Part shown: piece by piece, positions 43,723 to 51,579 of the stretch
Layout: the number at the start of each line of letters is the position of its first letter
How positions within the stretch are numbered: the stretch's first letter is position 1
Assembly (NCBI GenBank): GCA_023247275.1
Contig: JAHFGT010000006.1
Coordinates: 1-51,808 of the forward strand
Direction: 5' to 3'
Source: Candidatus Omnitrophota bacterium
GTDB lineage: Bacteria > Omnitrophota > Gorgyraeia > Aquiviventales > Aquiviventaceae
Length of the DNA: 51,808 bases
Position numbers and translations under genes: made by a program
Notes under the pieces: model-generated
Database searches by the model: none
Told to the model about the DNA's origin: nothing
What the model saw: the letters and a program-made list of their open reading frames with translations, nothing else

Positions 43723-46700
43723 ATGTACACGCTTGGCGAGAAAATTATTCTTCGGGACATCGAGACGGAGATTAAGGATTCGTATCTCTCGTATGCGATG
43801 AGCGTGATCGTCTCGCGCGCGCTGCCCGACGTGCGCGACGGGCTCAAGCCCTCGCAGCGACGGGTGCTGGTGGCGATGCATGATCTCAACCTGACGCCAG
43901 GGCATGGCTATCGCAAGTGCGCGAAGATCTGCGGTGATACCTCGGGCAACTACCATCCGCATGGGGAAGCGATCGTCTACCCAACGCTGGTGCGGCTAGC
44001 GCAGGACTTCAATACGCGGTATCCGCTCATCGACGGCCAAGGTAACTTCGGTTCGATCGATGGGGACGCCCCGGCAGCGATGAGATATTGCGTGACAGGC
44101 GACACACTTGTTGTCACAGAGCAGGGACTTGTTCCTATCAAGGATCTCGGGAAGGATGGAGCAAAAGACGTTCATATCCGGGTGCTCGCACGAGACCGAA
44201 CCATTCAGTCGGCTGTCAAATGGTTTGATAGTGGAGAGCATCCGACGCTAAAGATGACAACAGGGCGAGGCTATTCGCTGACAGGGTCGTACAACCACCC
44301 GATCTTGACATGGACAGCGAATGCTGTCGGCGGACGACCAGGGTACCGCTGGAAGCTGTTGAGCCAGCTCAGCACCGGAGATATTGCGGTGATTGACCGC
44401 ACGTCAGATCTGCTGTGGCCAAGCCGTTCTGTTCCGCTGCGTCCGTATTGGCCGGATCTCGGCGAGCGGCGCGTGGAGATGAAAGTGCTCCCAAGCGAAC
44501 TCACGGAAGATCTCGCATTCATTCTCGGGGCGCTCATCGCGGAAGGCACAATCAAGGAACACGAGCTTGAGTTTTGCAACAGCGATCCAGAATGGATGGA
44601 CGAATTTGATCGTCGATGGCAGCACACATTCCCAGACTGTCGACTCCATGCGTTCACGAAGCGGCCGAGCTCCTACGGGAAGCGACCGTACGCTACGCGC
44701 GAGATTCATTCACGGTACGTTGTGACGTTTCTGCGGAACATCGGATTGGCGCCTGTCCGATCTCAAGAGAAAACGATCCCGCCGCTGATTGCGCAGTCGC
44801 CTCGACCCGTCGTTGCAGCCTTCCTGCGAGCGTACTTTGAGGGCGATGGGACCATCACCTGCAGCTTGCCGAAGATGGTGGAGCTTTCCTGCATCTCCAC
44901 CAGCGAGACGCTGGTCAGCCAGATCCACGTGCTTCTGTTGAGGTTCGGCATCGTGTCAACCAAGCGATTCGACCGGTACCGGAAGACGCACAAGCTGTAT
45001 ATCCGGGGCCTGGAGAATTATCGTTTGTTCCATGAACAAATCGGCTTCGTCTCAGCGCGCAAGCATACCCGGCTGGCCGGAGTCATTGGCCAGTATGGGA
45101 AACAGTTTTCCACGAGCGACTTCGTGCCATTCATCAGTCGATTCATCCGCGAGCGATTGGATCGAAACCAGTCATGGAGGCAGCGGCGGGATTTTGTGCT
45201 CAAGCATAATTTCGACCGGTACCCGAATCTCCAGGTTCATTCAAAACGCGTTGTCGCAACCCTTGAGCCGGAGGTTCGCGGGACTGCCGAGGAGTTGTTT
45301 GACCATCTGCTCGACGCGCGCTACGTGTTTGATCCCATCGTCAACATCGAGAAGGCTGGCGTGGCGCGAGTCTATTCGCTCAAGGTGGATAGCTCGTGCC
45401 ATTCGTTCATCGCGAACGGATTTGTGAACCATAATACCGAAGCGCGGCTCACGCCGATTGCGGTGGAGATCCTGCAAGACCTGGATAAGGATACCGTGGA
45501 CTGGCAACCGAATTATGACGCGACACGCACCGAGCCCAGGGTCTTGCCAGGCAAATTTCCGGATCTGATTTGCAACGGCTCGTCGGGGATTGCGGTGGGG
45601 ATGGCGACCAACATGCCGCCGCACAACTTGACCGAAGTGGCCGAGGCGATCTGCGCCTTGATCGACGATCCGAAGATCGAGCTGCCGGCGCTGATGAAAT
45701 GCGTCAAGGGGCCAGACTTTCCGACCGGAGCGATTATCTGCGGCCGACAAGGAATCAAGGACGCCTATGCGACCGGCCGGGGGTCGCTGCGCATTCGCGC
45801 GAAGGCGCAGGTCGAGCAGCTCAAAGGGAATCGCCAGGCGATCGTGATCACCGAGTTGCCGTATCAATCGAATAAAGCGCTCCTGTTGGAGAGCATCGCC
45901 AGGCTGATTCAGGAGAAACAGCTTGAAGGGATCTCGGATCTGCGCGACGAGTCGGACAAGGACGGCATGCGGATCGTGATCGAGCTGAAACGGGATTCGA
46001 ACGACCAGGTGGTCTTGAATCAACTGTATAAGCACACGCAACTCGAAACCACCTTTGGCGTCATCATGCTGGCACTCGTCGATGGCCGGCCGCGCGTGCT
46101 GGGGGTGAAGCAGCTGCTGCAGACGTTCATCGATCACCGCCGAGAGGTCATCACGCGGCGGACCACATTCGAGCTGGCCCGAGCGCAAGAGCGGGCGCAT
46201 ATTCTCGAAGGGTTGAAGATTGCGATCGCGAATCTTGACGCGGTCATCAAAATCATTCGGCAGTCCAAGAGCCCGGCCGACGCCAAAGACGCGCTCATGA
46301 AGCGGTTCGAACTGAGCGACCGACAGGCGCAGGCGATCCTGGAAATGCAGCTGCAGCGGCTGACCGCGCTGGAGCGCGATAAACTCGAGGCAGAGTACAA
46401 AGAGCTGCTGAAGAAGATCGAGTACTACCACATGCTGTTGAAAAGCGAGCGAAAAATCCTCGAACTCATCAAGGATGAGCAGGAGGATCTGAAGAAACGG
46501 TTCGGCGATGAGCGCCGGACGCAGATCGTCGGCGAGATCGAAGATCTGCAGATCGAAGATCTGATCGCCGACGAGGATGTAGTGATCACCATCAGTCACG
46601 CCGGTTACATCAAGCGGCTGCCGGTGTCGACCTACCGCAAGCAGCGACGGGGCGGGGTCGGCGTGACGGCGATGGAAACGCGCGAAGAAGATTTTGTCGA

Positions 46701-47565
46701 GCATCTCTTCGTCGCCTCCACGCACCAGACGCTGCTGTTCTTCACCAATCAGGGGCGCTGCTACTGGTTGAAAGTGCACGAAGTGCCGCAGGCCAGCCGG
46801 TATGCCCGCGGGACGGCGATCATCAACCTGATCTCGCTCCAACAAGGGGAGAAGCTGTCGACCTTTGTGGCGGTGCGCGAGTTCGACGACCAGTCGTTTC
46901 TCTTGATGGCCACCAAGCAAGGCACGATCAAGAAGACGAAGCTGGACGCGTACGCGAACCCGCGCAAAGCCGGGATCATCGCGATCACGCTGGACGCGGG
47001 CGACGAGCTGATCGAGGCGGAGCTGACCGATGGCAAGCGCGAGCTATTGCTGTTGACCCGCAAGGGCAAGGCGATTCGATGTTCCGAAGAGGAGGCGCGC
47101 GAGGTCGGCCGCTCGGCCCGCGGCGTGCGAGGGATCCGGCTGGATAAGGGCGACGAGGTCATCGCGATGGTGCTCGGCACTGCCAGGGCCGAGCTGTTGA
47201 CCGTCACACAGCTGGGGTTTGGCAAGCGTTCGCCGATCGAGGAGTATCGCATCCAGAGCCGCGGGGGCAAGGGGATCATCAACATCAAAGTCACGCCCAA
47301 AAATGGCGCGGTCGTTGGAGCCAAAGTCATGCAGGATCAAGATGAAATGATGCTGATTACGCACGAAGGGATGATGGTCCGCTGTTCGGTGAAGGATGTG
47401 CGCTCGACCGGCCGCGCGACCCAGGGGGTGCGACTGATCAATATTAAGGGCAAGGACCGCGTTGCATCCGTTGCCCGCATTGTGCTCAAGGATGAAGAGG
47501 AACCGGAGAGCGGGCCGTCAGACGCTGAGCACTCGAGCGCGAAGAAGGAAACACCTGCAACCTAG
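43723..47565 (+). CDS. gyrA: DNA gyrase subunit A containing an intein
   Basis: The 1280-residue precursor consists of an 831-residue GyrA and a 449-residue intein (codons 44089-45435). The exteins hold the breakage domain ([26 protein letters not shown]), catalytic Tyr122 in AMRY, the coiled-coil arm and the six-bladed C-terminal domain with a GyrA-box QRRGGVG. Usual QRRGGKG has a basic sixth residue; here it is Val. Splicing must join Tyr122 to Thr of TEARLTP before the enzyme can cut DNA. It lies 28 bp after gyrB. Confidence 0.97.
   Translation: [1280 protein letters not shown]
44089..45435 (+). other. GyrA intein with LAGLIDADG-type homing endonuclease domain
   Basis: The insert starts with Cys (CVTGDTLV, block A), has a block B at [10 protein letters not shown], and carries two dodecapeptide endonuclease motifs: [12 protein letters not shown] near intein residue 145 and [13 protein letters not shown] near 245. 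It ends with [14 protein letters not shown] (blocks F and G), followed by Thr as the +1 nucleophile. Cys1, the block B and F histidines and the terminal His-Asn are all in place, so self-splicing looks possible. The acidic residues of both endonuclease motifs (Glu and Asp) are also kept. Confidence 0.93.
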
Positions 47566-47575
47566 TACGCAGCTT

Positions 47576-47647
47576 GTCCCCATCGTCCAACGGTTAGGAC
47601 ACCAGCCTTTCGAGCTGATAATGGGGGTTCGATTCCCCCTGGGGACA
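47576..47647 (+). tRNA. tRNA-Glu (anticodon TTC)
   Basis: The 72-nt tRNA has acceptor GTCCCCA/TGGGGAC, anticodon loop CTTTCGA and T-arm GGGGGTTCGATTCCCCC. The outermost anticodon-stem pair is C-A. Its 3' end belongs to a 24-bp sequence repeated at 47790-47813. The CCA end is not encoded. Confidence 0.93.
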
Positions 47648-47813
47648 GGGTTTTTTCGCTCGCCAGGGGGAATCGAAGGGAGCCGCGAGCTTTCCACGGC
47701 GACGCGACCTATGGGAGCGGCGCCCTTCCTCGCGAGCGGCGGGTGGCCGACCGGAGCGAGGCCCGCGCAGCGGGGCGAGCGGAGGCGCCGATTCCCCCTG
47801 GGGACAGGGTTTT
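47631..47813. repeat. 24-bp direct repeat of the tRNA-Glu 3' end, with an internal inverted copy
   Basis: The bases 47631-47654 (T-loop part, T-stem, acceptor and seven following bases of tRNA-Glu) recur identically at 47790-47813, 159 bp apart. A 12-bp inverted copy (CCAGGGGGAATC) lies at 47662-47673. The intervening sequence is very GC-rich and shows no gene. The arrangement resembles the attL/attR left by a tRNA-targeting integrative element, but it may also be a small local duplication. Confidence 0.75.
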
Positions 47814-48921: not shown

Positions 48922-50760
48922 ATGTGCGGGATTGTCGGGTATGTCGGCCGTCGGCAGGTGGCCGAGGTCCTGCTCGAGTCGTTGAGGTGCCTGGAGTATC
49001 GGGGCTACGATTCTGCCGGAATGGCGGTGATCAACAGCAAGGGCGTCGAGGTCCACAAGCGCGTCGGTAAACTCAACGCGCTGGCGGACGCGATCAAGCG
49101 CCACCCGATCATCGGGCATGTGGGCGTTGGTCACACGCGGTGGGCCACCCATGGCGAGCCGACCGAACTCAACGCGCATCCGCACACCGACTGCACGGGC
49201 GACCTGGCGATTGTGCACAACGGGATCATCGAGAACTACGCAGAGTTGAAGGAGCGGCTCGTAGGGCGGGGGCATACGTTTAAGTCGCAAACCGATACCG
49301 AAGTGATCGCGCATCTGATCGAAGAGCGGCTCAAGCGGCATCCGATGGGCGAGGCGTTTCGGTTGGCGCTGAAAGAGCTGCGCGGGTCGTACGCGGTCTG
49401 CCTGCTGTCAGCGCATGAGCCGCGGCGGCTGTTCGGTGCGCGCAGCGGCAGCCCGCTCATCGTGGGCGTCGGCAAAGGCGAAGCGTTCTTTGCCAGCGAT
49501 GTGCCGGCGGTCTTGGCCCGGACCCGTCGAGTGCTGTATCTGAATGACGAAGAGGTGGTCGTGCTCTCCGCCGAAGGCCCGAAGGTGATGACCTTAGAGG
49601 GACAAGCGGTGACGCGTCGCCCGTCGACCGTGAACTGGAACATTGCCGCGGCCCGCAAGGGCGGGTTCGCCCATTTTATGCTCAAGGAGATCCACGAGCA
49701 GCCGCGCACCGTTGAGCAGACGTTGTTCAACCGCCTCAGCGTCGAGCGGAGACAGATTGCGTTCGACCGGCACACCCAAACCTTCCTCAACCGCCTCAGC
49801 GTCCAGGAAAAGCTGGTGATCATCGCGTGCGGCACCGCGTACCACGCTGGGCTGGTGGGCCAGTACATGCTCGAAGAGTTCGCCCGCCTGCCGGTCGACG
49901 TAGACCTGGCGAGCGAATTCCGCTACCGCGGCCCGATGCTGGATAAGCACACGACGGTGCTGGCCATTACGCAATCCGGCGAGACGGCGGATACGCTGGC
50001 CGGAATCCGATTAGCCAAGGAACAAGGCGCAAAGGTCCTTGCCATTTGTAACGTGGTGGGCTCGTCGATCGCGCGCGAGGCGGACGCGGTGCTGTACACA
50101 CATGCCGGACCAGAGATCGCGGTGGCCTCGACAAAGGCGTACACCGCGCAACTGACGGCGCTGGCGCTGTTGACGCTGTATTTAGCGAAGCGGCGGCGCG
50201 GGGTTGGGCCGGCGCGGTGGCGTGAGCTGGTCGAGGAGCTGGCTCGGCTGCCCCAGATTATTGAACAAACGCTTAGAATCGAGCCGGCCGTCAAACTGGT
50301 CGCTGAGCAATACGCCTCGCCGAGGAATTTCTACTTTCTCGGGCGGCGATATAATTTTCCCAGCGCGCTGGAAGGCGCGTTGAAGCTCAAGGAAGTGTGC
50401 CCGCTCATTCATGCCGAGGGGTATGCGGCCGGCGAGATGAAGCATGGGCCGATCTCGCTGATCCACAACGGGTGGCCGATCGTGTTCGTCGCGACGCACT
50501 CCCCGGTCTATGACAAGATCATTTCGAACATCGAAGAAGTGCGAGCCCGGAAAGGGGAGTGCGTCGTCATCGCCTCGGATGGCGATGCGCGCATCAAACG
50601 GTACGCCGACAGCCTGCTGACCGTCCCACAGACCAGCGAGTTCCTCTCGCCGATTGTGGTCGCGATCCCGCTGCAATTGTTCGCCTACTACGTCGCCGGC
50701 GCGAACGGCTGCGATATCGATCAGCCGCCCAATCTGGCGAAGAGCGTGACGGTGGAATAA
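48922..50760 (+). CDS. glmS: Glutamine-fructose-6-phosphate aminotransferase (isomerising)
   Basis: The 612-residue enzyme makes glucosamine-6-phosphate for the cell wall. The N-terminal nucleophile is Cys2 (MCGIVGYVG), with YRGYDSAG and GHTRWATHG in the glutaminase domain. Two SIS domains follow (IACGTAYHAG, ITQSGETADT, STKAYTAQL, EGAYAAGE-like EGYAAGEMKHG), and the end is LAKSVTVE. The last 35 codons are duplicated at 51475-51579, beyond a toxin-antitoxin pair. Confidence 0.97.
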   Translation: MCGIVGYVGRRQVAEVLLESLRCLEYRGYDSAGMAVINSKGVEVHKRVGKLNALADAIKRHPIIGHVGVGHTRWATHGEPTELNAHPHTDCTGDLAIVHNGIIENYAELKERLVGRGHTFKSQTDTEVIAHLIEERLKRHPMGEAFRLALKELRGSYAVCLLSAHEPRRLFGARSGSPLIVGVGKGEAFFASDVPAVLARTRRVLYLNDEEVVVLSAEGPKVMTLEGQAVTRRPSTVNWNIAAARKGGFAHFMLKEIHEQPRTVEQTLFNRLSVERRQIAFDRHTQTFLNRLSVQEKLVIIACGTAYHAGLVGQYMLEEFARLPVDVDLASEFRYRGPMLDKHTTVLAITQSGETADTLAGIRLAKEQGAKVLAICNVVGSSIAREADAVLYTHAGPEIAVASTKAYTAQLTALALLTLYLAKRRRGVGPARWRELVEELARLPQIIEQTLRIEPAVKLVAEQYASPRNFYFLGRRYNFPSALEGALKLKEVCPLIHAEGYAAGEMKHGPISLIHNGWPIVFVATHSPVYDKIISNIEEVRARKGECVVIASDGDARIKRYADSLLTVPQTSEFLSPIVVAIPLQLFAYYVAGANGCDIDQPPNLAKSVTVE

Positions 50761-50838: not shown

Positions 50839-51087
50839 ATGACGATTATCAAGACATTAGCCAAAGGGCAGGTCGTCATCCCAAAGGCGATCCGCCAGCG
50901 GCTCGGCATCAAACCGGGCAGCCGGCTCCTGATCCAACTCAAGGGCGAAGGGGTGGTGCTCAAGCCGCTCCCCGACGATCCCATTCACGCGCTCCATGGA
51001 GTGCTCAAGCAGGGAGGGCCCTCGACCGGGGAGCTGCTGAAATGGCGTCGAGAGGAGCGGGCACGTGAATCGCGCGATCGTGCTTGA
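50839..51087 (+). CDS. AbrB/SpoVT-type (VapB-like) antitoxin
   Basis: The 82-residue protein has the swapped-hairpin AbrB DNA-binding domain: TIIKTLAKGQVVIPKAIRQRLGIKPGSRLLIQLKG. A C-terminal tail follows that would wrap the toxin. It probably represses its own promoter. It overlaps the PIN toxin gene by 23 bp, the usual coupling in VapBC pairs. Confidence 0.9.
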   Translation: MTIIKTLAKGQVVIPKAIRQRLGIKPGSRLLIQLKGEGVVLKPLPDDPIHALHGVLKQGGPSTGELLKWRREERARESRDRA

Positions 51088-51466
51088 TACGTTCGCGCTC
51101 GTGCGATTCTTCAAAAAAGAGCAGGGCTCCGAGCGCGTGAAAGCGTTGCTGATCACGGCGACCCGCGGCAAGACCCCCGTACTGATGAGCGAAATCAGCG
51201 CGGGGGAGCTGTACTATATTGTGGCGCGCAAGCTGGGCGCAGAGCGTGCTGAGGAAATCGTGGCGAGTCTCTCTGCCATCCCCATCACACTGCTGCCCAC
51301 GACGTGGGAATTGACGCTGGCCGCCGCGAGGCTCAAAGCGCAATGGCGCTTGTCCTACGCGGATTGTTTTACGCTTGCCAGCGCCCTCGAGCAACACGCT
51401 GCGGTGGTGACCGGAGACCCGGAATTTCAGCAGGTGAAACATCTGCTCCCCATCGAGTGGGTCTGA
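51065..51466 (+). CDS. PIN-domain (VapC-like) ribonuclease toxin
   Basis: The 133-residue PIN domain carries the acidic metal site: Asp8 (VLDTFALVRFF), Glu48 (ISAGELYY), Asp100 (LSYADCFTLA) and Asp118 (VVTGDPEF). VapC toxins cleave RNA, often tRNA or rRNA, unless bound by the antitoxin. The start is GTG with GAGGAG upstream. The gene lies between the two copies of the glmS 3' end. Confidence 0.92.
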   Translation: MNRAIVLDTFALVRFFKKEQGSERVKALLITATRGKTPVLMSEISAGELYYIVARKLGAERAEEIVASLSAIPITLLPTTWELTLAAARLKAQWRLSYADCFTLASALEQHAAVVTGDPEFQQVKHLLPIEWV

Positions 51467-51474
51467 TGGGATGC

Positions 51475-51579
51475 GTCGTCTCCATTCCACGGCAGCGGTT
51501 CGCCGACTACGTCGCCGGCGCCAACGGCTGCGATATCGATCAGCTGCTCAATCTGGCGAAGAGCGTGACGGTTGAATAA
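51475..51579 (+). pseudogene. Second copy of the glmS 3' end
   Basis: This 105-bp segment encodes VVSIPRQRFADYVAGANG, then CDIDQLLNLAKSVTVE and a stop, homologous to the last 34 residues of GlmS. The final 81 bp (51499-51579) differ from 50680-50760 at 5 positions; upstream the similarity falls. The copy overlaps the rsmI start, as would be expected of the original glmS end, so the toxin-antitoxin unit seems to have entered glmS and brought or created a replacement end. Confidence 0.85.

Follow-up and report, generated by a model that had tools for sequence, protein, structure and literature searches.

Results

Organisation of the DNA behind tRNA-Glu

We analysed a stretch of 51,808 nucleotides from Candidatus Omnitrophota bacterium (GenBank assembly GCA_023247275.1, contig JAHFGT010000006.1), called the window below. 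Towards its end a tRNA-Glu(UUC) gene is flanked by gyrA upstream and a gene for a nagA-like amidohydrolase downstream, the two neighbours named in an earlier note on this DNA. Behind the tRNA gene its 3' end recurs in direct orientation (Table 1). The repeat, CGATTCCCCCTGGGGACAGGGTTTT, is real and exact as the note had it, and at 25 bp is one base longer than the 24 bp given there. The tRNA boundaries called by ARAGORN and by Rfam place its start in the T-loop at C56, from where it runs past N73 into a 7-nt trailer. Shuffled windows contained no match to the 25-bp sequence at up to 3 mismatches, and in the genome to which the window belongs (1.89 Mb, 81 contigs) it was found in two copies only, again with up to 3 mismatches allowed; neither the third copy for which the note had suggested a search nor many copies at other tRNA genes turned up. 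The inverted copy, described as 12 bp at 47662-47673, exists and is longer, 18 nt (47660-47677) at 94% complementarity, and it fits either direct copy. The interior, put at 135 bp, does lack a gene; it measures 134 bp (47655-47788) and is a conserved structured element, as described below. Directly after the right repeat copy (47813) the native flank towards nagA begins. In what follows, INV is the inverted repeat of the host's T-loop and of the 3' strand of its T-stem, and DIR is the direct copy of host tRNA positions 57-73, often with part of the trailer.

Table 1. Positions of the tRNA-Glu gene and of the features behind it, in window coordinates.
Feature	Position	Strand	Remarks
Host tRNA-Glu(UUC), intact	47575-47648 (ARAGORN)	+	47576-47647 by Rfam; N73 at 47647; no encoded CCA
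Left direct-repeat copy, 25 bp	47630-47654	+	C56-N73 = 47630-47647; trailer GGGTTTT = 47648-47654
Short spacer or filler TTCGCTCG, from trailer to inverted cap	47655-47662	+	Missing from the G010 empty site
INV, 15 nt, exact inverted host T-arm 3' half CCAGGGGGAATCGAA	47663-47677	+	47660-47677 with one mismatch
Structured non-coding family core	47678-47788	+	R1 model, 104 bits over 47663-47801; no gene
DIR, right repeat copy	47789-47813	+	C56-N73 = 47789-47806; trailer 47807-47813

A family of cores behind tRNA genes

When the locus was searched as DNA against 59 related genomes, the interior, which is GC-rich, matched by itself many places in genomes of the same family. Forty matched stretches were examined, and they lay just 3' of tRNA genes, in the same orientation and with copies of the 3' end of that tRNA. 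The order on the tRNA strand is intact tRNA, trailer or spacer, INV, core, DIR and native flank; the core, roughly 85-110 nt long, is conserved and covarying. Forty-two copies matched in DIR over 12 nt or more and had a spacing between 60 and 200 nt; three were removed by hand (L105, L117, L132), and the remaining 39 formed the alignment A1, on which the covariance model R1 is based. In L117 (genome G003, tRNA-Leu) a short palindromic repeat splits the right copy, DIR, as an insertion nested inside this copy of the T-arm.

R1 found one copy in the genome of the window. Because few first-look candidates were scored per genome (123 in the family, 11 in the class and 8 in the phylum), the R1 counts are lower bounds: at least 90 copies in 17 of the 27 family genomes (26 of these copies in one genome, G020), with none found in the other 10, and copies in at least 84 of 293 class genomes and at least 95 of 384 phylum genomes (E ≤ 1e-4). 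In 27 genomes of other groups there was no match at E ≤ 0.1, and two fell at 0.3-0.5. A pattern scan of viral contigs gave two matches, both in stretches without a tRNA, which look like chance. No description of this tRNA-bound cassette family was found in the open-access literature; the passages of PMC10066038 that mention tRNA annotation contain no such element. We conclude that the core defines a previously unrecognised, structured, non-coding and Omnitrophota-wide cassette family, positioned behind tRNA genes and with ends tailored to the host tRNA.

The ends are tailored to the host tRNA

Position and tailoring were measured on a subset of the family, class and phylum matches, 117 R1 matches from 91 loci, reduced to 115 copies by removal of two duplicates. 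Ninety-eight of the 115 follow a tRNA gene at no more than 60 nt from its 3' end, and tRNA and element share a strand throughout. Of the other 17, several of which are second units of arrays, 16 are within 410 nt of a tRNA; L196 is 1491 nt from the tRNA called, and there a tRNA-like 3' end missed by ARAGORN precedes the element and is matched by its ends. Across 39 genomes, the hosts comprise 34 isoacceptors for 15 amino acids. The host tRNA that ARAGORN called upstream of the element is intact, so that the tRNA gene is uninterrupted; a group I or group II tRNA intron was rejected on this ground.

With one copy without a recognised nearby tRNA set aside (n = 114), all 17 nt of DIR at positions 57-73 were identical to the host in 90 copies. 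Mean DIR identity was 15.8/17 to the own tRNA vs 9.2/17 to other host tRNAs, and against these other hosts the own tRNA was the strictly best match for DIR in 105 and for INV in 62 of the 114. Since A1 had been chosen partly by DIR match, the comparison was repeated on the 77 copies outside A1, where 56 were identical at 17/17 and the own tRNA was strictly best in 64; among copies outside the family, DIR was identical in 29 of 34. Position by position, agreement of DIR with the host over the 98 first units was flat near 95% at 57-73 (0.91-0.98) and fell to 0.70 with the next base, +1, and to some 0.4 at +12; that of INV was about 0.9-0.98 at 57-63, with matches to about 66 and background by 69. 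When tRNAs were swapped as a control, agreement at the variable position 59 was 0.23-0.26.

DIR also copies the encoded CCA state (73 concordant and 8 discordant of 81), so the mature tRNA is not the source, and copying from mature tRNA was rejected. Where DIR and tRNA differ, INV agrees with the tRNA 22 times, with DIR 11 times and with neither 4 times, a distribution that fits several histories.

The core has a covarying fold

RNAalifold applied to the 39 aligned copies yielded 31 pairs, 24 of them with compensatory changes. At the 22 core pairs 97% of the cells pair, and both sides are changed in 123 cells (35 in shuffles); the covariation score was 0.441 vs 0.143 shuffled, a value that neither any of 500 shuffles nor any slid version reached. 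The core has tandem GA pairs at three places; some copies have Watson-Crick pairs instead, and at two of these places CCGG or GCGC stands where others have GAGA. G.U pairs exceed A.C pairs in the core helices (15 vs 3, p = 0.0075), an excess that cannot separate RNA from top-strand single-stranded DNA. In P1, the INV:DIR helix, there is no such excess (G.U 5 vs A.C 7). The core is thus kept as a sense-strand fold, whereas the caps are not obviously kept by pairing; INV and DIR look copied from the tRNA without selection for pairing. In the minimum-energy fold of tRNA plus element, DIR is the pairing partner of the tRNA 5' strand, and INV that of the first copy.

Rfam searches left the core uncovered. 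For the window at E ≤ 5 there was, partly over the core, one chance-level antisense match (P4, E = 3.8); for four loci at E ≤ 2, the tRNAs were found together with chance-level matches on or around them, none of which covered the core.

Near-identical cores at different tRNAs, empty sites and arrays

Within single genomes, nearly the same core stands behind different tRNAs: 107/109 identical positions for tRNA-Trp and tRNA-Thr in G020, 109/113 for Ser and Leu in G023, 83-84/87 for Met, Thr and Arg in G091 and 80/84 for Leu and Lys in G222 (duplicate units kept). In all these pairs DIR, INV and the trailer differ as the host tRNAs do. With one copy taken per genome and isoacceptor (n = 103), 48 copies had their nearest core within their own genome, where shuffles gave 6.5 on average and 20 at most; 7 had it behind the matching isoacceptor of a different genome, where shuffles gave 2.8 on average and 12 at most. 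Copies of one genus at a shared isoacceptor were only 0.63-0.72 identical.

At the gyrA/tRNA-Glu site, read by eye from 70 nt, the element is present in 3 of the 27 loci shown (the window, L011 and L014). In the empty site of G010 (L008) the flank TTTTCCACCGACG resumes exactly at the end of the window's DIR.

Behind many tRNAs of G020 stands a second joint (positions 57-73, trailer and INV), identical or nearly so to the first, in front of an unlike core. These second cores are of a long AT-rich kind, or else the order is reversed and a core of CCCTGAAGGGG type precedes the R1 type. The long AT-rich core (GAGCCTTCGGTCAATCAAGAG...) was seen at L097, L121, L196 and L198, with an R1-type right end where read; it is perhaps a core that received an insert. 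A further repeat core (CCCTGAAGGGGTGCGG...) occurs in the same genome at L190, L259, L257 and L263, at Ser, Arg and Gly tRNAs and with T-arm ends.

We also scanned tRNAs for a copy of their own positions 57-71, whatever the interior, covering 37 of 39 Rfam tRNA matches in the genome of the window, 42 of 44 in G020 and 46 of 47 in G091. Such copies were found at 2/37, 20/42 and 7/46 tRNAs, vs 0.23, 0.13 and 0.02 expected from swapped tRNAs. The second case in the genome of the window is tRNA-Arg(UCU) (L244, 3119-3193, minus strand), with an interior unlike the R1 core; tRNA-Thr(CGU) of that genome (L243, 271-342, plus strand) is followed by an inverted cap, an interior that differs again and a right copy that has decayed. 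Together with the G020 arrays, these scans indicate that several non-coding cargos share one kind of joint.

Discussion

A proposed mobile cassette with host-derived ends

Comparison of related genomes lends good support to the view that these cassettes are mobile. Together with the repeats on either side, the segment 47655-47788 is probably one copy of a family of mobile non-coding cassettes of Omnitrophota that insert only behind tRNA genes. Counted against this reading are the shortness of INV, which decays to background by position 69, the near-equal numbers of A.C and G.U in P1, and the agreement counts of INV where DIR and tRNA differ, which fit several histories. As a counter-point to mobility itself, all evidence is comparative, and the near-identical cores could stem from gene conversion between resident copies.

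Cassette ends that fit 34 isoacceptors require a mechanism in which the target is copied as the cassette inserts. Such a mechanism must fit caps and trailers specific to the host, an intact tRNA and two edges of which one is fixed at T-loop position 57 and the other lies ragged in the trailer; it must also fit the copying of the encoded CCA state and the duplication of joints with new cargo. The mechanism that we favour, by inference, is one in which a folded single core strand, DNA or RNA, would be attached to the target through its 3' edge, at positions 56/57 of the universal T-loop. Synthesis running on through the tRNA 3' end would then leave a direct duplicate, fixed at one edge and ragged at the other. 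The inverted cap could arise at this T-loop sequence too (TTCGA), by fold-back synthesis or by a template switch. Host replication or repair machinery and an unrecognised recombinase are candidates for the mover. As the T-loop is common to all tRNAs, any tRNA gene could be a target.

If the reading holds, the cassette would be a mobile unit of very small size and without genes, the repeated tRNA 3' fragments in Omnitrophota would be explained, and any tRNA gene could receive DNA behind it and stay whole. The core also provides a new RNA-like fold for study, conserved and with tandem GA pairs at three sites. We see an even chance that this is a categorically new mobile system: several unlike non-coding cassettes that insert at the T-loop via a folded strand, with flanks copied from the tRNA end of the target and the host gene never broken, that form tRNA-led arrays and are maybe cotranscribed with the tRNA and able to swap its 3' end.

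Alternative explanations

The element might instead be a functional RNA module of the tRNA 3' trailer, an RNA cotranscribed with the tRNA and acting in regulation or processing, in which INV pairs with either the tRNA T-arm 3' strand or DIR as a two-state switch of the 3' end and the cores are homogenised by gene conversion. The strong covariation of the core, its G.U excess (as expected of a sense-strand RNA) and the exchange of 3' ends in the minimum-energy fold are all in its favour. However, the distribution is very patchy, from 26 copies in G020 through a single R1 copy in the genome of the window to none found in 10 of 27 family genomes, and empty orthologous sites exist; both speak against a needed function. 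Moreover, DIR is kept up to N73 although the T-stem alone would suffice for pairing, P1 lacks the G.U excess, and several unlike cores occupy the same joints. We consider this explanation unlikely.

A SINE-like bacterial retroelement, with target-primed reverse transcription supplied in trans, would account for a folded, RNA-like core and for a duplication that is fixed at one edge and ragged at the other. The idea is weakened by the search for the reverse transcriptase family RVT_1 in 19 draft genomes, which found that family in only 3 and not in G020, G091, G006, G015 or the genome of the window, and by the concordance of DIR with the encoded CCA state in 73 of 81 cases; we hold it to be decidedly improbable.

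Small, palindromic, dispersed elements could also be hairpins driven by a Y1 (RAYT/IS200-like) transposase in the manner of REPINs, and Y1_Tnp is present in 226 of 293 class genomes. It is not associated with the cassettes, being found in 68 of 84 genomes with R1 and 158 of 209 without (p = 0.36). The search did not find it in 16 R1 genomes, among them G016, G023, G043, G258 and G091, which has many similar copies nonetheless. A Y1 transposase as the necessary mover was rejected on these grounds, and a drive of this kind is very unlikely.

The 3' ends of tRNA genes are classic landing sites of islands and phages, which carry a fixed attachment sequence, and the earlier note had linked the repeat to tyrosine-recombinase elements and read the interior as a possible remnant or empty docking site. 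An insertion at the tRNA 3' end is borne out. A footprint of a tRNA-targeting tyrosine integrase island that lost its cargo would leave an intact tRNA and a displaced 3' fragment, which passages of the Islander report (PMC4383910) give as the marks of islands. But here the interior is itself the inserted element, its core conserved behind many tRNAs phylum-wide (115 copies examined), with neither gene nor integrase inside, and its ends and trailers are specific to hosts of 34 isoacceptors. Near-identical cores at different tRNAs, always with the ends and trailer of the host, do not fit a classical attachment site, and the attribution to a tyrosine recombinase was given up; we regard an island footprint as extremely unlikely.

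We give practically no weight to an assembly duplication or a chance repeat: only draft assemblies were available, but there were no shuffle matches, tens of other, independent assemblies share the interior and its anatomy, and in G010 (L008) the site is uninterrupted.

Comparison with known systems

The mobile cassette proposed here shares single properties with several known systems. Like tyrosine-integrase islands, it targets the tRNA 3' half, leaves the tRNA whole and has a 3' fragment at its far end; unlike them it is about 134 bp long and gene-free, takes its ends and trailer from the host tRNA and not from a fixed attP, and adds an inverted T-arm copy. MITEs consist of a non-coding core between inverted caps with a target duplication around it. 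The cassette has a similar plan, but its inverted caps are host tRNA sequence, different at every tRNA and not element-specific; its direct duplication, 25 bp in the window and a candidate target-site duplication, has one edge fixed at T-loop position 57 and the other ragged in the trailer.

Integron cassette and CRISPR arrays hold different cargos separated by identical joints, and so do the G020 arrays. The G020 joint, in contrast, consists of the host tRNA end, trailer and inverted cap, and no common repeat like attC or that of CRISPR is visible. GOLLD is a bacterial candidate structured RNA found near tRNAs. With such RNAs the cassette has in common a conserved secondary structure with compensatory changes; it differs in a core without an Rfam match and in ends tailored to the adjoining tRNA.

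REPINs are not known to be bound to tRNA genes. REPINs and RAYT-mobilised REP elements (PMC3116915, PMC2817692) are mobile DNA of many copies in a genome, and the proposed cassettes resemble them in this and in being short, structured and non-coding; they differ in being found only at tRNA 3' ends, with host-tailored ends and no Y1 transposase association.

Other features of the window

GyrA (43723-47565, 1280 aa) contains an intein with a LAGLIDADG domain (LAGLIDADG_3, E = 1.8e-17; Intein_splicing weak). Elsewhere in the window, the last 105 bp of glmS (50656-50760) recur at 51475-51579, 819 bp downstream, with 87% identity. The two glmS 3' repeats flank genes for a MazE-like antitoxin (50839-51087) and a PIN-domain toxin (51065-51466), apparently a toxin-antitoxin cassette inserted with duplication of the glmS 3' end.
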